Below are positions 30,410 through 47,400 of a stretch of 64,000 nt of DNA, in pieces. This stretch comes from Triglochin maritima (Eukaryota > Streptophyta > Magnoliopsida > Alismatales > Juncaginaceae). Location: positions 21,009,501 through 21,073,500 of the forward strand of contig OY821786.1 in NCBI GenBank assembly GCA_963682175.1, in the 5' to 3' direction. The translations under genes were made by a program, and so were the position numbers. The notes beneath the pieces were generated by a model. It was not told the DNA's origin and did not search any database. It worked only from the letters and a program-made list of their open reading frames with translations. Within the stretch, counting starts at the first letter, position 1. Each line of letters starts with the position of its first letter.

Positions 30410-31410
30410 CGTCCCGTGTGAGACTACTATGTCGGAGCTCGTTTGAGGGTGAAAACGACCCAGCTAGTTTGGTGTAAACGACGTAGGTCGTTCAGTTCGT
30501 TTGTTGAAAATAAATCAACTTGTTTGATAGAATGACCCAACTTGTTTGGTAATTTTTACAACTCGTTTATCTTGATTAAATGAGTTCATGTAACAAGCTG
30601 GTTTGTCTCGTCTCAATGTTCGTGTTCGTACAAGTTAATTTGTAACAAGTTGATTTGTGATATTTTCAATTTGTTTGTCTTGATTCATTTTGAATCTAAC
30701 AACGATGCCATGAAGTTTTTCAAAACATATGATTTTTCTAACATAAATAATTCGGAAATTGAACATGACAAGTTTACTTACGAAATTAAATTGTGCACAT
30801 ATTAATGTTCTAATACTCAAAACTGACCATCCGTAATTGTATATGTTGTTAATTAAGTTGTGTCATATAGAACAAATTGTTTCATGTTTTAAATAGAAGT
30901 TTTGTTTTTTAATGAGTCAGGTTGTTAATTAAGTTGCAACGACCAAGCTAGTTTCGACCAAACGACTCAACTTGTTTGTTGAAAGCAAATCAGCTCGTTT
31001 GATAGAACAACTTAGCTTGTTTAGTGATTTTTACAACTCGTTTCTCTTGATTCAATATCTTCATGAACAAGTTGGTTTGTCCCTCCTCAATGTTTCTGTC
31101 CGTACAAGTTAACTTGTAACAAATTAGTTTGTGATGTTTTCAGCTCGTTTGGTCCAATATGGACTCAGGACACACTCTCGACACAAATGGACACATTCTA
31201 GACACAATATGGACTTATTTGGATAGATCTGAGCACAATACTAACACATTCTTGACACAATATTACCACATTCTGGACAAAAATGAAAACATTCTGGACA
31301 AAATATTAGCACATTCTGGACACAATATGGACACAAATGGACATAAATAGACAAATCTGGACACAATTTGGGTACAATATGGACACATTCTTGACACATT
31401 GGGATTGATG
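30410..31410. repeat. Low-complexity duplicated block and minisatellite
   Basis: A segment rich in 'cttgtttg' and 'aacgacccagct' (about 30450-30690) recurs diverged at about 30945-31150, and part of it again at 34887-35003. From about 31155 to 31400 a short-period minisatellite repeats 'gacacattctggacacaat' variants. No coding sequence. Confidence 0.65.
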
Positions 31411-35408: not shown

Positions 35409-38400
35409 ATGTGGTGTTTACGGCCTGCCTGCCTTCGTGGTTTTCTTCCGGTCCTAGCTTCGTCCTCTTCTATTACTTCCCGTCTCCTCTCTCCCACCCA
35501 AACCCTAATCTCATCCACCAACACCTGCCGCAAACGCAACCTCGACGCCATGATCGGGTCCAACGCCAAACTCCACTCCTCCTCCCATCCTTCTGCCACA
35601 AGGTCGGATTTCGAATAATCAACTTTCCGGAAACAAATTTCAGTCCAAAACTCAAAACTCGAATTTGGTTAGATTGTTATTCTGGGTGTTTTGTTTTGGG
35701 GTTTGAATGTTGGAATGGGAGACGAAAGTGTGGTTTGGGAAGTAGGGGTTTGGGTGTTTTTGTGGAGAGTTTTGTTGGATTATGATTTTGAGTATTTCAG
35801 TTTGTAGAACTCTGCAGTAAGAGGTGTTTACCCCAAATTTGTTAGATTCTGATTTTGAGTTTTTTTTTTGAGTATGAAAGTTGGGATGGAAGGTCAAAGT
35901 GTGGATTAGAAAATTAGGGCGAAAGTATGGATTAGAAAAGGATTTAGGGGTTTATGTTTTGGGTTTTTATTTTGATGTAAATAATAGAAGCATGTCTATC
36001 TGTGTGGAGTAATTTGGAAACTTTTTACCCAAAATTTCTTGTTTTAGAAATTCGGGAACCAATGTCAGTTTACAGAACCATGTGGTAACTGGTAAGACGT
36101 GTTTAACCTTCTTTTTTTTATAGTACTTTTGAATATTTTATTTTTGGGTTAGAAAATTAAAGTTGGAAATGGAAGGTAGGCGTATTGATTAGAATGTTAA
36201 AAGTTTTCTTTTCTGAAATATAAAAACACATGTATGTGTATTTATTAGACAATTCAGGATAATTTTTAATCCAATGTGTACTGAAAAAAATAGTCTGCAC
36301 ATGTCAAAACTATTAAAAGTGGATTTAGGCGCTAATTGGAGCTCATTGTAAAGCTGGTTGTATATCTTATACTTTTAATTTCTTCTTCAGAGGCAGCCGT
36401 GATGGCACCAGAGATGATAGGCGGGGAAGGGGTGGGAGAGGTGGCAATTCAAATGATAGGGTTGATGCCCTAGGAAGACTACTGTATGTCCATGGCCGAT
36501 TAAATATTCTGTGTTTATGATTATGTTAAAAAGATTCTTTTACTGTTTTTGTTCTTTGGTATTGTTGCCTATGTTTCTTAAAAGAGTAGTTATATACGGA
36601 CGCGAGCGTCCGTGACGCGTCCTACGTGGAATAACACGTCAGCTGCCAGGTGTGCGTCCAGTCAACCAAAACCTCTGCGCGGGGAAATGTATACGAATTG
36701 TTGGGTGCGACGGTTCATTTCCCTAAATCACGATTTGTTGGGTGCGACGGTTCATTTCCGTGCGACGGTTCATTTCCCTAAATCACGATTAGACGGTTCG
36801 ACTTCACGTACATCAGTAGCGGCGGTACAGCATTCGAGTAACTTTCCCCATTTCACCCGGAGTTCCTTTCCATACGCTCATCCAAAACCTTCATTGCTCC
36901 AAAACCTTTCCATTCCAGTAACGAAAACCAAGACAAGGCGAAAATGGATCCTTCTCTACCTGAAACCTCCATTGCTCCTGAAATTGTAGCCGCGCAGGTG
37001 TTTTGTCAACCATGTTCTTTCTGGTTCATTTTAAGGTTCATTATTGGCCTCTAACAATTTTTTTGTGTGGTTTAAGGGAAGCACGTACTACTTCCGCGAA
37101 ACCAAGTGCGGTTTCGCGGCCCTTCACAAGCAGTTCGACCGGATGAAGGAGGAGGAGAAAAATGTCTTCCAACGGACGCCTTTCGGTCACTTCCTCAGCT
37201 TTCCTCACGTCACAACTGACAACGAGATACTGGGTTGGTTCGTCGAACACTTCGACGCCAATGAAGTCGGTCTGAGAATAGCCACTGGGGTGGTCCCATT
37301 TACGGTAGAAGACGTCGCCCTTCTACTTGGACTAAGAGTACATGGGCAGAGAGTGGATATGGATGCCATGTACGTAGCGAAACGTGACGGGGTTAACCTC
37401 GACAACACCCAGCTACTGGGTCATCTTACCGCCACGAGCAAGATGGGCGAGGAGGAGGAGCACGTCCGACTCCTTATTTCTATGATTTTCAATCATTTTT
37501 TGTTCTTCGATGGATCACTGCGAACTAAAGCGTGGTACACGAAACACCTTAAGAACCTCAAGCGCCTCAAGAGATATGCGTGGGCAAATGCGGTTCACAC
37601 TTTCTTGGTTGAAGGCCTGGAGGAAGCCCAACGGGACCTCTCGAGGAGGAGATCGTCAGCGAACTTCTCTATGAAGCAGGGCTACGTGTCTGGTTGCGTT
37701 GCCGTATTACAAGTAAGCATCTTGGTCCGGAATGAGTGTTGTGTCAGTCCGGAATAGTGTCGGTTTATGTCCGGAATAAGTGTGTTGCCTGTCCGGAATA
37801 GTCCTGTATGTGTCCGAAATGACTGTCTTGCTTGTCCGGAATACGTCTTGTGTCTGTCCGGAATACGTCTTCTGTCTGTCCTGAATAGTGTTGTCTCTGT
37901 CCGGAAAAAGTGTCTTGAGGTTTTCCGGAATAAGTGTCTTGTGGTAGTCCGGAATGAGTGTTGTGTCAGTCCGGAGTAGTGTTGGTTTATGTCCGGAATA
38001 AGTGTGTTGCCTGTCCGGAATAGTCCTGTATGTGTCTGGAATGATTGTCTTGTCTGTCCGGAATACGTCTTGTGTCTGTCCGGGATAAGTCTTGTGTCTG
38101 TCCTGAATAGTGTTGTCTCTGTCCGGAATAAGTCTTGTGTCTGTCCGGGATAAGTTTTGTGTCTGTCCTCAATAGTGTTGTCTCTGTCCGGAATAAGTGT
38201 GTTGCCTGTCCGGAATAAGTGTGTTGCCAGTCCGGAATAGTCCTGTATGTGTCCGGAATACGTCTTGTGTCTGTCCGGAATAAGTAATTTGTATGTCCGG
38301 AATACGTCTTTGTCTGTCCGGAATAAGAGTTGTGTCTGTCCGGAATAAGAGTTGTGTCTGTCCGGAATAAGAGTTGTGTCTGTCCGGAATTAGTGATTAA

Positions 38401-41400
38401 CGTTATGAGACTGTCCTGGGGATGTTATGTTTCTGTTTTTTAACTTATTCCTGTTTTCAGGTGTGGCTTTGCGAGAAGTTCAAATTGGGGGATCCCCGGT
38501 CAGCATTTCCACGGTTCAAGTGTTGGACCGAAATGTTTAGCAGACGCCAAATCCTTAGAAAATGGGAAGATCGAGGCATCAACTTGTCCCGGATATACTC
38601 GGGCCAATTTGAGTTGAAGGGCACCCCAAAACTCAGTGCACGGGAGCATTCACTGTTGTCAGAGGATCAATTTCCTCCTGCAGCAGCAACTCCCGCAGCG
38701 AAGGAAACACCTTCAACTCCTGCAGAAGCAACGGTCGCCTCGAAGGAAACACCTTCAACATCCACTCTACCAAGGATACAACTCAGTGAATGCAGCATTC
38801 CATGTGACCCACTGCTACAAGAGTTGGAACTTAGTGAGGTGAAGACGAAATGGCTGCGAGCCGAAGCAGCACTTAGGGAGGCGACCGTTAAAATTAACAA
38901 CCTGGAGGAAGAACTGCGGATCTCTCAAGAAGAGTGTCGTGAGCTGAGAGTCCGTGGGGAGGAGGAAGAGAGGGAAAAGAGGGAGGAGGAAGAGAGAAAT
39001 AAGAGGGAGGCGGAGGAGAGGGAAGAGAGGGAAGAGAGGGAGGAGGAAGAGAGAAATAAGAGGGAGGCGGAGGAGGAAGAGAGAAATAAGAGGGAGGCGG
39101 TGGAGAGGGAAGAGAGGGAAAAGAGGGAGGAGGAAGAGAGAAATAAGAGGGAGGCGGTGGAGAGGGAAGAGAGGGAAAAGAGGGAGGAGGAAGAGAGAAA
39201 TAAGAGGGAGGAGGAGGAGAGGGAAGAAAGGGAAAAGAGGGAGGAGGAAGAGAGAAATAAGAGGGAGGAGGAGGAGAGGGAAGAGAGGGAAAAGAGGGAG
39301 GAGGAAGAGAGAAATAAGAGGGAGGAGGAGGAAGAAAAGGAGGAAGTTATGAGGAGACAGGAGGAAAGAAAGAGGAAGGCTGGGGTTGCGCTTCCGCTTT
39401 TGCACCCCAAAAAAATGCGGACCTTTAAACCACGCTTGCGCACAGAACACATACACGAAGCGCAAAGCAAATCTGGCCAAGATGAGGCACAGAAGATTGC
39501 CGCAGAAAAACAAGAACAAATAAAGGAGGCCGAAGAAGCCACCACAAAAACAAAAGGGCCCGAAGAAGCCAGTGAAGAAAAAGCGAAAGATGAACTGGCC
39601 GCCCTTGTTTCGTCCACGAGGCCAGATGTGGATGATACCGCCTTGAGAACGCTGACCAATGATGAGGTACATCGTTTATTGAATGCAACGGCCCCCGAGC
39701 GAGAAGCAAAAGATATTATCTGGAGGGGGGTTCTCAGCATTATCAGCAGGGGTGATCTCAAGGAAATAATTTCGCGAGGCACAGAAATCACCAACGAAAC
39801 GCTTGACGGCCTAATTGAGGTACTCGTCAGAAGAGGAGGGCAACAAAAGGTGGTCTGCTTATCATCCTTCGAATCGGAAATGATTGTGGAGGGACAGGGA
39901 GAAGATATAAAGAGAGATTATTTACTCCCAAAAATGGAAGGACTTAATGTGGAGGAAGTCGTCATCGCACAGCCATGCTGTTTGTCCGGCCACTGGACTC
40001 TGTTCGTTGCCCACGGACCTCGATCGGAGTTCATTCAGTACAACAGCCTCTCCCGCACGCTTAAAAGAGGTGAAAATCCTAACCTTTTAGTCGGAACTCA
40101 TGAATGCACCGCGTCTAAGATAGCGGGATTCTGGCGAGGGTTTTTGGCGGTCGAATGGCCACTGAGAGTTGACAGGAAGGGTAGCCAACGACAGCTAGCG
40201 GGGAGTAACGACTGCGGGCCATACGTTTTGTACTGGATCAAGCGTTTGATGGAGAATGCTGATCCGACTCAGCCGAAGCAGAGCAAGGTTATTCACCGTT
40301 TTAGAGGCGATTTGGCCAATTTCTTACTCGAAGACTCTGGGATGTGCGATCAACAATAAACGACTCTGGATGTTTTAATTTTTTTTACAAAGTTATACAT
40401 GTATACATGTTAAAATTACATAGACTATTTGAATGATTTATCAATACAATGACATTTGGTGTTGGGTTAAATTATCAATACAAGGACATGTATAAATAAT
40501 CAATACTCTTAAACCGGACAACAAATACACCTATTCCGGACAGCAAATACACTAATTCCGGACAACAAATACACTTATTCCGGACAGCAAATACACTTAT
40601 TCCGGAAAAACTTAATGTTCCGTTTCTGGACAAAATTTATTCTTAAACCGGACAACAAATACACTTACTCCGAAAAACAAATACACTTATTCCGGACAGC
40701 AAATACACTTATTCCGAACAACAAATACACATATTCCGGACAACAAATACACATATTCCGGACAACAAATACACTTATTCCGGACAGCAAATACACTTAT
40801 TCCGGACAAAAAATACACTTATTCTGGGCAGCAAATACACTTATTCCGGACAAACTTTTTGTTCCGTTTCGGGACACACTTTATTCTTATTCCGGACAGC
40901 AAATACACTTATTCGGGACAGCAAGTACACTTATTCCGGACAGCAAATACACTTATTCCGGACACACTTTATTCATAAACCGGACAACAAATACATTTAT
41001 TCCGGACAACAAATACGCTTATTCCGGACAACAAATACACTTATTCCGGACAGCAAATACACTTATTCCGGACAAACTTTTTGTTCCGTTTCGGGACACA
41101 CTTTATTCTTATTCCGGACAGCAAATACACTTATTCCGGACAGCAAGTACACTTATTCCGGACAACAAATACACTTATTCCGGACACACTTTATTCTTAA
41201 ACCGGACAACAAATACATTTATTCCGGACAACAAATACGCTTATTCCGGACAACAAATACACTTATTCCGGACAGCAAATACACTTATTCCGGTCAAACT
41301 TTTTGTTCCGTTTCGGGACACACTTTATTCTTATTCCGGACAGCAAATACACTTATTCCGGACAGCAAGTACACTTATTCCGGACAGCAAATACACTTAT

Positions 41401-44400
41401 TCCGGACACACTTTATTCTTAAACCGGACAACAAATACATTTATTCCGGACAACAAATACGCTTATTCCGGACAACAAATACACTTGTTCCGGACAGCAA
41501 ATACACTTATTCCGGACACACTTTTTGTTCCGTTTCGGGACATACTTTATTCTTATTCCGGACAGCAAATACACTTATTCCGGACAGCAAAAACACTTAT
41601 TCCAGACACACTTTATTCTTAAACCGGACAACAAATACATTTATTCCCGACAACAAATACGCTTATTCCGGACAACAAATACACTTATTCCGGACAGCAA
41701 ATACACTTATTCCGGACAAACTTTTTGTTCCGTTTCGGGACATTGATGTAACGTAATCCGGACATATTGGTAACGTAATCCGGACATACTGGTAACTTAT
41801 TCCGGACAGAAATTAACGTAATCCGGACAGACAAACAATGTAATCCGGACTGCCTAATTACGTATTCCGGACATACTGGTCACTTAATCCGGACTTTGAT
41901 GTTACGTAATCCGGACATACTGTTAACTTAATCCGGACATACTGTTAACTTAATCCGGACAGACATACAACGGTACAAAATTACTTAATATATTTGTCGC
42001 CATGAGAAATTAATTCACAAACGATCAAGCAAAGAAAGGGTTGAATCTTATGCAATAATACAATGACTTTCAACAAAATTACATACAATGACTTTCAACA
42101 AAATTACATACAATGACATTCAACAAAATTACAATGACTTTCAACAAAATTACATAGGAATAATTCCAACCAAGGACAAATACAATAATCAAGGAGGAAC
42201 TCCCTCGTAATGCAAATTCATGTCCCAGTCATCGAAATCGTGATCCCCCGGTTTGGGTGCTGCAGGGTGTAACGGGGGTAGAGCCTTCTTCCTGTTGATT
42301 TTCTTAACGTTACTTTTAATTATTTTCTCAGACAAAGAAATCCGTCGTTTGCTCGGCGGTCTGCCTTTCCGTATTGTCTTATCCGGATTGAGAACGGATG
42401 TACCAGCGAACACAGGATCAGGTCGTTGCATACGTTCCTTAAGCAACTCAAGTGCCTCTACCGCCTGAAGATATCTGTCGTTTGAGTCGAAAGCGGCCTC
42501 GGCGATCCAAAGCGCACGACCCATTATGTCGTCGTGGCGACGAAGCGCATCGTTCCCCGTTATGCCGCTTTGAAGAGGAAACTTGACTCCATAGCTCCTT
42601 CGGATATCCTTCCTCCATCGGTGGACGATGTAAAACTCGGGGAGCAACGCGTTTGGACGTATTCGGGCAATAACAACATAAACGTGACAACATAGGATAC
42701 CGACGTGATCAAACATTCTGCAATCGCATACCCACTTCTCATCTCTAATTTGCACTGTGAACCGTTTCGACAATGGGAGGATATGTGTCAATACATGTTC
42801 GGTCACGTTGAAGTGCAATGTGTCGTCCTCGTTGAACTCATCCTTGATGTCGCAGTACATCATCTTCCCAATTTCTAACTGCACCTTCTTGAAGACACCC
42901 ACCGTATACAACTCGCTCAATTGCCTCTCGAATGGATATTTCGAAATCAATTGCGGAGCCTTATGCTGACAATCGAAATCAGACTGAGCTTCCTTCTCAT
43001 ACTTGTGGCGTAGTGCGAGTTCGTATTGTTGAACGAACTGCTTAAGTGTCGTCCTTGATGTGAGGTACTTATCGAAGAAGGCGTTCATACCCTCACTTCT
43101 CTGGGTTGATGCCATTCCGGCGGAAAAACAATCCCTCGAAAATGCAGGTACCCAGTGCTCTCGAATTGCATAAATGGATCGGAGCCAATTATTGTCGTGC
43201 AACTCGAAATCATCTAGAAATCCCTGCCAATTCCGCTCGAATTCTGCCGGAGTCTTGGAATCGAATACACAGTTGTTGAGGTCAAACAACGTATGCTCCC
43301 GGTACTTCTTGGGCAGCTTCACAGGGGCCTTATTCATTATGTGCCATATACAAAATCTGTGCCGCGCTTCAGGGAACACAGTCCTCACAGCCGAAGCTAT
43401 GGCGCCACATTGGTCTGTTATGATCGCCGGGGGGCTTGTATCTGCACACAAAGCGATCAAGATAAAAACATATGTTAATCCGGACAGAAATAACGTAAAC
43501 CGGACAGACGTCAAGGGTAAACCGGACGAGCAAAAGACGTAAACCGGACAGACGTAAAGGATAAACCGGACGAGCAAAAGACGTAAACCGGACAGGCGTC
43601 AAGGGTAAACCGGACAGACGTAAGGGATAAACCGGACGCGCAAAAAACGTAAACCGGACTTACGTAAGGGATAAACCGGACGAGCAAAATACGTAAACCG
43701 GACAGACGTAAGGGATAAAACGGACGAGCAAAATACGTAAACCGGACAGACGTAAGGGGTAAACAGGACGAGCAAAAGACGTAAACAGGACAGACGTAAG
43801 GGATAAACCGGACGAGCAAAATACGTAAAACGGACAGACGTAAGGGAGTAACCGGACAGGCACACAACGTAAAATGGACAAAGCCGGACAAAATAAAACA
43901 CGTACCGTTCATGCACGTCAACCATGTTTGGAACAACCAAATGTAATTTTGTGTCGTCTCGGAAGAGAGGAGTGCGCAACCGAGTAGGACGGACTGGTAG
44001 TGGTGATTTACCCCCACAAATGGGGCAAAAGGCATGTCATACTTGTTTGTTATGTATGTTGTGTCGAAACATATTGCATCTCCAAAGTAAGAGTAAGCAG
44101 CTCGAGACCGACTGTCGGCCCAGAACACATTTCGTAGTCTGCCTTCGTCGTCCATATCCATTACGTAAAAGAAGCGGGAATCATTCTTCTGCATCCTGAT
44201 GAAATAATCTTGGATAGCTTGCGCATCTCCTGGTCCCATTTTGAGGTTTCTAACCTCGTTCACAACATTCCTGCGAAACATAATTTTTATGACAAAGCTA
44301 AATGCGTAACTTCAACCAGGTTAAGTGGAGAATAAATAACCTTAGGTCCCGCTCGTTGAAAGACAATTTATCGTGACCTCCAGCTTCGACCACAAAAGAT

Positions 44401-47400
44401 TGCATGGTCTTGGCGGCAGATATACCGGCAGCATCATTGCACGAAATGCGTGCTCTGGCGGACTCCGGGACGGATCGTTTTTGACGGAGGAAGCGCATCT
44501 GGTCTTCCGACAGCATGGCGTGATTATGTTCGAGATCTACGTAGTTAATTACGTAGCCTCTGGATGGATTACCGGAGACCCTAATCCGCGCAGTGCATTC
44601 GACCCTACCGGATAACCTATGTTTCGGTCTACCTTCACCTTGGTTTCCGGGAGCATTACCTTCCTTTGAGCAAGTAAGAGTGGCCCGTATAACAACACCA
44701 CGATCGTAATGAGATTGCCTTATCTTCACACCAAAACCACAGGAATCGGCGTATGAAACGTAAAATGCTTTGGCTTCTTCGAAGGAAGGAAAATTCATCA
44801 TCACTTGAGGGACGTTGGAGGCAGGAGCCGGCTGTGAGGACACATTTACGAGTGCCATTACAGTACAACAAAAATGGAGGAAGGAGAGAAGAAGGAATGG
44901 TTCGTAGGATCGGAATAACCTAGACACTCATATTTGTATCTCCGTGACGCGCCAAACAATAAGAAAGAAGACGGAGGACGTGCTGATTTGAAAAGCATTA
45001 AATGCGATGGTGGACGCATCGGGAAAATAAAACAACAGCAACAAAAAATCAGGAGTAAGTAGTTCGTTTGTCCGGAATAAGTGTTCCGTCTGTCCGGAAT
45101 AAGTATTCCAACTGTCCGGAATAAATAGTAACTGTGTCCGGAATAAGTTACGTGCTTGTCCAGAAACTAAAGAAAATGAATGACGTGTGTGTCCGGAAAA
45201 AAATGAATTTAATAAAGAGAAGGGAAGAAATAGGAGGACGAATGTTGAGTGTAGGAGCGCCAACATGATGAAAGAATGGAGTGATTTGAGACGCATTAAT
45301 GAGGGATGGCGAGGGATGGCGAAATTTGTACGAAACGAGGAATAAACTAAACAAAGAAATTGTTTCTGGGGAGAGAGCGAACTCAGCCGCGTCTGCTGAC
45401 TGGGTTGCCCACATCAGCCATTCTGCTGACTGGGTTTGCAGCGTCCGTGACGCGAAGCGTTCAACAAACATTTCCCTTCTTAAAATTGTGTATTGTTGCT
45501 GAACAGCTCTAATAATGAGTGTTCAGGAATTTTTGACACGCTGTTGCAGAGTTTTCTATGAATTGATATGTTCAAATTTGTGTTTGTCTGCAGTACAAGA
45601 ATATTGCGGCATATGGCAGCTGAGCTGAAGTTACAGATAAGAAGTGACGGTTACATCAGAGTAAGCGATCTTTTGCAGTTGGATATTACAACATTAGCAA
45701 AAATACCACTAAAGGCGCACACAATAGATGATGTTAAGGAGGTAACTTTTTTTTAATTTACAACTACTTGAGATTGTTACCTATGTGAAGTATTTCCTCT
45801 TTTTCTAAAGTCCTTGTCTTTCTAAGTTATGCTTTGACTTTCGTGGAAACTTAAACTATCTGTTTTATCCTTCTTTAGGTTGGCATTTTATTGAGCTTGA
45901 TTTAGTTTTACTATGTTTTTGCACAATCAGATTTATACTTTGTGTGATCCAATATACACAGGCCGTCAGAAGGGATAATAAGCAGCGGTTTCGTCTTTTA
46001 GAAGACAATGGAGAGCTCATGATTCGTGCAAATCAAGGGCACACAATCAAGGTTCATTACACCATTAGATTTTTTATTCGAGTGACTGAAAGTTTGATCC
46101 CTTTACTCTTTTGTCTAATCATGAGCTAAAAGTCAATTTAGTACTCCATGTAAGATAAGTTGAGCTGCATTATATGCATTTATGCACTTCATTAAACTAG
46201 TAATTAAGGAAAATGTCAATTTGATGAATTTTTTTGTATGAATTAACTAACTATGAAGATGGGAATGCAAATCTGATATTTCTGCATCTCATTTTTTTCG
46301 CTAACAATTTTGTAGAGTTTATCTTGCAAGTGCCTGTTTGTATCTATTTCAAAATGGATACACAATGAAGGTTGACCTTTTATGCTTTTGTTACTATTGT
46401 CGAACTTAACATGCAACAATCCAGTCTGGGCATCTTAGATTCAGAAGCTCTGAAGATATACCTTTTTTATCAGAAAGTCGTGGGAATTGTACACCAGTAT
46501 TGTTCCGGTTTCATGATCTTCTCTTCTTTGAGATGGATTTTTCTAATCACCTCTTCCATTGTTTTTCTGGTAGACGATAAGCTCGGAGAGTTTGCTGCAA
46601 CCTATTCTCTCTGCTGATAATTATCCTGGTACGAATGCTGGTGAATGCAAAAAATGATCTCCTTGGTGGCTTGACTTAGATTTTATTGCTTTCATTGGCT
46701 GCTTGATGATTGATCTCTTACATTGTGCTGCAGTTTGCGTGCATGGAACCTACCGAAGAAATTTGGAATCAATTCTGCAGTCTGGTCTCAAGAGAATGCA
46801 AAGGATGCATGTCCACTTTGCTCACGGCTTGCCTACTGATGGGAAAGTGATTAGTGGTATGCTTCTTTGATGAAGTCTTGTTAACGGTTAACCTCTTGTA
46901 GGGGGGCTCTATTACATACTCAATTTTTAGGTTTTAATAAGCAATTTGAAGTTCCATTCTTCTCTAAGCAAATTCATTAAAAAAATCATTATTTTCTGTA
47001 TTATTTTTTGTTTCTCCACTGCACAATTGCAATGATGTCAATTGCTTGCAGTCCTAATGAGATTTGTCAATAACTCATTGTCACAGAAAAATTCACATTT
47101 GGTGGTAATATCAAAGTTTTCCTGATTTCTCATTTCTTTTTGAAACAGGTATGCGGCAGAGTGTTAACATATTGATTTTCTTGGACGTGAGGAAAGCCTT
47201 AGAAGGTAGACAAGTTGAAAAATTAAACGTGCATCTTAATTTGGCTGTCTTGCGATCTAAATTTGTTGGTGTATTTGCATTTCAGATGGCATGAAGCTTT
47301 ATATTTCAGACAACAACGTCATTCTGACCGAAGGATTTGATGGTGTCGTTCCCCTGAAGTACTTTGAGAAGATAGAGACATGGCCTGGGAGACAACCCAT

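Follow-up and report, generated by a model that had tools for sequence, protein, structure and literature searches.

The genome of Triglochin maritima harbours a Mutator-like element (MULE) whose non-coding DNA holds five tandem arrays of a 22-bp unit, all built on one short directional core while their linkers differ from array to array. The element lies in a stretch of 64,000 nucleotides (contig OY821786.1, positions 21,009,501 to 21,073,500 of the forward strand), hereafter the window, whose own numbering is used below. In relatives within the same genome, one base at a nearly invariant core position is switched in separate arrays. On balance we favour a reading in which the arrays are helically phased, one-directional binding sites of a protein encoded by the element itself, most likely a protein that joins a PMD domain to an Ulp1-like part (PMD-Ulp1); once bound, it would tag copies of its own family, whether or not they have genes, and release them from silencing. 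The arrays are the following:

37713..38460, plus strand: array A, 31 units, filling intron 2 of the PMD gene, sense
40500..41745, minus strand: array B, 56 units, between the convergent genes
41746..41970, minus strand: array C, 10 units, between the convergent genes
43470..43890, minus strand: array D, 17 units, inside the transposase gene (intron 2), sense, core GTCCGGTTTA
45060..45200, plus strand: array E, 6 units, upstream of the transposase start

A preliminary description of the window had proposed five arrays with a common 22-bp unit, two of them in introns in sense orientation, and all of this is borne out. Tandem Repeats Finder (TRF), which is blind to the core, detects a period of 22 bp in A (37725-38395), B (40502-41719), C (41749-41961), D (43495-43859) and E (45052-45148), with a period of 44 as well at 43605-43880 in array D. 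Autocorrelation, the check that the description had called for, places the top lag at 22 in A, B and C and at 44, followed by 22, in D and E; the peaks exceed the 99% level of 200 shuffles in every one of the five arrays. Neighbouring units in A, B and C are spaced by 21, 22 or 24 bp only, so no slot was missed through the choice of units by their core. Irregular spacings comprise one of 32 and two of 44 in D and one of 33 in E.

What the arrays share is a directional 14-mer, TGTCCGGAATAAGT, followed by about eight freely varying bases; array D departs from it with TGTCCGGTTTAC. Cyclic alignment of the five TRF consensuses gives the common part T-GTCCGGA.TAAGT-(8 variable). The best match to the consensus of A is 17/22 for B, 15/22 for C and 14/22 for both D and E, equalled by 0, 3, 2 and 14 of 2000 shuffles, respectively. 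That the agreeing columns are contiguous is no more than suggestive (1132 of 20000 permutations). Random unit pairs from different arrays agree at 0.78-0.95 in eight core columns versus 0.21-0.45 in the last eight, which upholds the earlier claim that the linkers have diverged. The core itself had to be redrawn: it had been described as a palindrome, TCCGGA, present in all arrays, whereas the conserved unit is asymmetric and array D holds TCCGGA once among 15 CCGG. Each core carries one CpG. The string TGTCCGGAAT has 58 copies inside the element and none elsewhere in the 64 kb. Outside the element, at 31168-31398, there is an 11/22-bp repeat (GGACACAATAT...) with best 14-mer matches of 10/14, which may be a decayed relative.

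The motif TGTCCGG is found on the plus strand only in A and E and on the minus strand only in B, C and D, with no mixing within an array. One orientation per array in non-coding parts is also a feature of the VANDAL elements that are read by VANC proteins. Since tandem duplication by itself keeps one orientation per array, polarity cannot be taken as proof of function; more telling is the asymmetric core that arrays with unrelated linkers have in common. Could the arrays be neutral minisatellites, spread through slippage and conversion? Their quick turnover would fit, as array B differs by 3.0-5.8% where exon 3 of the transposase gene differs by 0.04%, and so would the orientation. Neutral turnover would not, however, maintain a single 14-mer across five arrays whose linkers are unrelated, or preserve it in orthologous arrays of diverged copies, which leaves this explanation quite unlikely.

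The element is a successful recent family, with at least 100 near-identical copies. With transposase exon 3 as query, the best 100 of 6709 candidates are all 99-100% identical. Across the 1.06-Gb genome, which is the scope of all genome-wide counts given here, a coding 21-mer has 191 exact copies and the right end 701; of the 32 right ends on contig C1, 8 have the coding 21-mer at a distance of about 2.1 kb, which implies that many copies lack genes or have diverged. Phased motif pairs in the same orientation number 27,329 genome-wide, versus 3 convergent sites, the opposite arrangement counted. Nine listed clusters of the phased TGTCCGG pattern (C-type), all on C1, were compared with the window (L039-L047). 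Together with the window they place 448 of 456 neighbour distances of up to 70 bp within 2 bp of a multiple of 22, and contain, within 60 bp, 677 pairs in the same orientation (1354 counted from both ends) and 8 in the opposite one. Eight control loci (L001-L008), picked by TCCGGAAATCCGGA, hold 1 GTCCGG and 0 CCGGAC in total.

Copies without genes retain the arrays. Coding matches are present in L044, L045 and L046; L039, L040, L042, L043 and L047 have none, and a coding remnant in L041 belongs to a neighbouring element. The gene-less L039, L043 and L047 (about 2.4, 1.6 and 2.9 kb) have both family ends, perfect 9-bp target site duplications (TSDs) and arrays; in L040, L041 and L042 the right end alone was recognised. 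The comparison with other copies suggested in the preliminary description came out as it had anticipated: between the window and the diverged coding copies L044 and L046, orthologous arrays agree at 0.89-0.92 in the core and 0.22-0.59 in the linker. L046 has array-C-type linkers at a place where the window has mostly array B. A near-identical set was also assembled from 30 exon-3 loci, minus 6 identical ones, leaving 24, among them the window's own copy (L025). In this set exon 3 differs from the window at 13 of 30,072 bases. Core, middle and linker differences are 0/1872, 0/1398 and 12/1772 in array C, 3/3216, 3/2448 and 24/3138 in array D, and 256/8616, 348/6335 and 486/8400 in array B, whose alignments are rough and run across rearrangements. 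Decay of the core CpG was considered as a sign of methylation and rejected: 560 units with at most one core mismatch include 55 G5>A and only 6 C4>T, which excludes a simple deamination reading.

The strongest pointer to a reader acting in trans is the one-base switch. L041 consists of two neighbouring elements, one with the C-type motif and one with TGTTCGG (T-type). The T-type element has 31 units at 22 bp with the core TGTTCGGAATAAGT, and T in 31/31 units. It bears a FAR1-exon remnant that shares 58% identity with the exon of the window over 53 aa. The remnant has at least 150 copies: among 2897 candidates, the best 150 show 100% identity over 51 aa. The same element holds an extra 22-bp array at 3021-3139 of L041, with units such as TTGTCCAGTTTATG that resemble the TGTCCGGTTTAC of array D. 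Three pieces beside such a remnant that contain 0 GTCCGG (L051-L053) were tried as a counter-example and set aside, as the T-type array of L041 sits on the remnant's other side, outside the pieces. Genome-wide, the T-type phased pattern gives 3,723 pairs. A further locus, L054, was chosen by this pattern and pooled with L041 as T-type relatives by motif. Its transposase pieces are 74%, 88% and 60-74% identical to the transposase of the window in exons 1, 2 and 3, and its PMD exon 2 is 65% identical over 184 residues. Its arrays lie in the transposase intron, in sense, and between the genes, in positions like those of D and B/C. The locus contains 60 GTTCGG strings (three in linkers) and 0 GTCCGG; by unit, T is found in 35/35 and 30/30 of its two arrays.

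In total, the 4 T-type arrays hold 90 strings with T and none with C (L041 30, L054 60), and the 16 C-type arrays hold 472 with C, 4 with T and 7 with A. TGTCCGG here versus TGTTCGG in the relatives thus makes a case of related families with different motifs, as in VANDALs. The loci were mostly picked by motif, so a genome-wide count of mixed pairs was needed as a check: T-then-C pairs number 352, against about 3,550 expected by random mixing, with C-then-T taken as equal. Many of the listed mixed pairs have array-B-type linkers, as point changes in C-type arrays would give. The same one-base switch in separate arrays fits a single trans-acting reader. The L054 array in the transposase intron is sense, like A and D, which would also suit intron arrays that act as RNA, enhancing splicing or transcription. 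Against such enhancers stand the position of B, C and E, none of which is within a predicted gene, the antisense orientation of B and C relative to the PMD gene, and the persistence of arrays in copies that lack genes; we regard this explanation as very improbable.

Which protein would read the arrays? The element carries two convergent genes with open predicted frames; the models are predictions, with splice sites chosen by eye:

36944..40359, plus strand: PMD-Ulp1 gene, 862 aa, exons 36944-36997, 37077-37712 and 38461-40359, predicted, frame open
42189..44858, minus strand: transposase gene, 711 aa, exons 44858-44341, 44270-43906 and 43441-42189, predicted, frame open

A PMD/DUF1985-like protein had been proposed beside the arrays, and the first half of that assignment holds. 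The spliced N-terminal 400 aa match PMD in Pfam at 7.9e-14 (52 bits against a cut-off of 34.9, profile 37-212 of 347), while the same residues give no DUF1985 match at E<=10. The tail is Ulp1-like, with a Peptidase_C48 match of 5.9e-4; by eye, the His and Cys of the site are present, with Asn at a position where Asp is presumably expected. Between the two, 57-bp coding repeats at 38957-39343 produce a long Glu/Arg-rich stretch. A protein database search found a single JGI protein, P0001, 94% identical across 15% of the query, and by eye the repeat make-up of the middle part differs between P0001 and the window. A sequence search of the PDB gave no match at E<=1, and single-sequence fold prediction of PMD exon 2 reached a mean pLDDT (predicted local distance difference test) of 49.9. 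The transposase has FAR1, MULE and SWIM domains, all three above the Pfam cut-off and on separate exons, the combination of FAR1/Jittery-type MULEs.

The limits of the element come from comparison with L039, L044 and L046, and the TSD rests on the same comparison:

36584..45476, no strand assigned: whole element, non-TIR (terminal inverted repeat) MULE, 8,893 bp
36575..36583, plus strand: 9-bp TSD TTCTTAAAA, left copy
45477..45485, plus strand: 9-bp TSD TTCTTAAAA, right copy

A rival 10-bp repeat, GTATTGTTGC (36559/45490), was discarded as the TSD since it lies outside the ends common to L039 and L044. The terminal sequences are GAGTAGTTATA... at one end and ...AACAAACATTTCCC at the other. No inverted match of 14/16 exists between the end regions, and the ends are not inverted repeats of each other; a non-TIR MULE with a 9-bp duplication is also what VANDALs are. 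The ends contain GACGCG, which differs by a single base from part of CACGCGC, the site bound by FAR1 (PMC8599713).

Alternatively, it could be the FAR1-like transposase that binds the arrays and is drawn by them to copies of the element, whether these have genes or not, for transposition or for autoregulation. In favour of this, FAR1 is a DNA-binding domain, the transposase differs between C-type and T-type elements, and arrays persist in gene-less copies. Arrays A to D, on the other hand, lie at least 1.1 kb from either end of the element, mostly in introns and intergenic DNA, the left end is free of arrays for 1.1 kb, and the ends have the GACGCG of their own. We think a transposase code rather unlikely, and because of these ends and distances we favour PMD-Ulp1 over the transposase as the likely reader.

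The motif might also be read by a host factor, an activator or a silencer, and the switch would then be an escape from that factor or its capture. A switch requires just one trans-acting reader, which might be a host protein, and VANDAL non-coding regions are targets of RNA-directed DNA methylation (PMC10398659). A single host factor would nevertheless meet two codes in one genome, and the PMD gene belongs to the element; a host reader seems unlikely to us. Under the favoured explanation, an element-encoded reader, PMD-Ulp1 by preference, would bind the core every 22 bp, that is, every two helical turns. Bound reader would mark the copies of the family, genes or no genes, and lift their silencing, as a VANC-like anti-silencing module built on PMD-Ulp1 and not on DUF1985; the Ulp1-like part is a putative remover of SUMO. 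A shift in the specificity of this reader would switch the motif in separate arrays. A single trans-acting reader with shifted specificity would explain the switch, the retention in gene-less copies, the two-turn phase and the contrast between core and linker. The self-recognition system first proposed for the window thus keeps this contrast, its layout, the arrays of gene-less copies and now the switch, and loses the palindrome, the universal TCCGGA and DUF1985.

Several observations weigh against this reading. The transposase exons, like the PMD exon, differ from L054, so the reader could be the transposase. In L054 the Ulp1 exon finds no counterpart at E<=1e-3, which leaves the T-type protein known only in part. 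L039-L047 were picked by the C-type pattern and L054 by the T-type one, which makes the C/T contrast partly one of ascertainment, and the linkers of the two L054 arrays resemble each other; the switch may therefore have passed from one array to another by conversion. In near-identical copies, positions 4 and 5 of the array B core change (2.7% and 4.2%) as quickly as some linker positions. The Ulp1 match falls just short of the Pfam cut-off (20.2 bits against 20.7), and dN/dS (0.38-0.90), uninformative with few changes, gives no sign of strong constraint.

A strict 22-bp phase is measured here; for VANDALs, Sasaki et al. 2022 (EMBO J) reportedly described motif density, helical periodicity and non-autonomous copies. 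In VANDAL21 the motifs occupy introns of both VANC21 and VANB21 as well as DNA upstream of VANA21; they share one orientation and change by tandem repeats, and the motif of VANC6 is a different one, AGTTGTCC (PMC5735166). The likeness to VANDAL21/VANC21 and VANDAL6/VANC6 lies in a MULE that carries its motif arrays in introns, in DNA upstream of the transposase and elsewhere outside the coding sequence, in one orientation, in rapid tandem-repeat change and different motifs in related families, and in a variable repeat-rich protein part, reported for VANC (PMC5735166) and found here between P0001 and the window. The protein there is DUF1985, here PMD plus an Ulp1-like part, and the motifs YAGTATTAY and AGTTGTCC lack the CpG that every core has here (PMC5735166). 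KAONASHI (KI)/KIU elements are likewise non-TIR MULEs; their Ulp1 gene is reverse to the transposase gene (PMC2528002, PMC13317346), the orientation also of PMD-Ulp1, whose candidate Ulp1 part is fused to PMD and stands beside a FAR1-type transposase; KIUs are VANC genes bearing Ulp1 (PMC13317346). The ULP-bearing Jittery-like MULEs of grapevine and melon have Ulp1 sequence beside a transposase outside the MuDR group, comparable to the Ulp1-like part here, but PMD and motif arrays go unmentioned in the available excerpt (PMC2528002), and any kinship to Jittery is putative. MULEs of grasses and Amborella bear a PMD too, fused there to the transposase instead of residing in a separate convergent PMD-Ulp1 gene with arrays, and captured PMDs have been speculated to serve anti-silencing (PMC5418596). 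The host PMD members MAIN and MAIL1 have a role in silencing and are not known to contact chromatin (PMC9899485), and VANC-DNA structures are mentioned as unpublished (PMC12859917). No PMD-Ulp1 element with phased arrays was recognised among the papers that searches of the open-licence literature listed.

By analogy the element probably works like a VANC system without being a VANC by sequence, anti-silencing arrays being known for VANCs. Sequence-specific anti-silencing has so far been worked out for the VANC proteins of Arabidopsis VANDALs; if PMD-Ulp1 acts likewise, two protein families would have arrived at one solution, and a DNA-reading role would be added to what PMD does. A more specific proposal is tentative, and its chances are clearly lower: the fusion of PMD and SUMO protease may be a sequence-specific anti-silencer. 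In it, PMD would read TGT(C/T)CGGAATAAGT once in two helical turns, always on the same face, and direct a deSUMOylase to silenced chromatin; sister families of this genome would have split the code by one base, so that they would no longer lift each other's silencing. With C-type and T-type one base apart in a single genome, two proteins and two probes would be enough to put co-evolution of protein and DNA to the test.

A second abundant PMD family (L048, L049 and L050) was considered as the same array system and rejected, its 36-bp palindromic repeats belonging to another system. L049 is a MuDR-type MULE with TIRs at 276-477/6719-6920 (92.6%); its MURA-like frame spans 950 aa, and the PMD is encoded separately, in a frame of 436 aa. 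The 36-bp repeats of L049, with the palindromic core CGGCATCACCAGTGCCG, lie close to each of its ends; in L048 the core is similar but the arms are different. The MULE of the window is itself inserted in an intron of a host Tpt1/KptA RNA 2'-phosphotransferase gene (about 36393-36485 and 45594-46052), an assignment given by Pfam (PF01885, 9.3e-22) for the peptide joined across the insertion.

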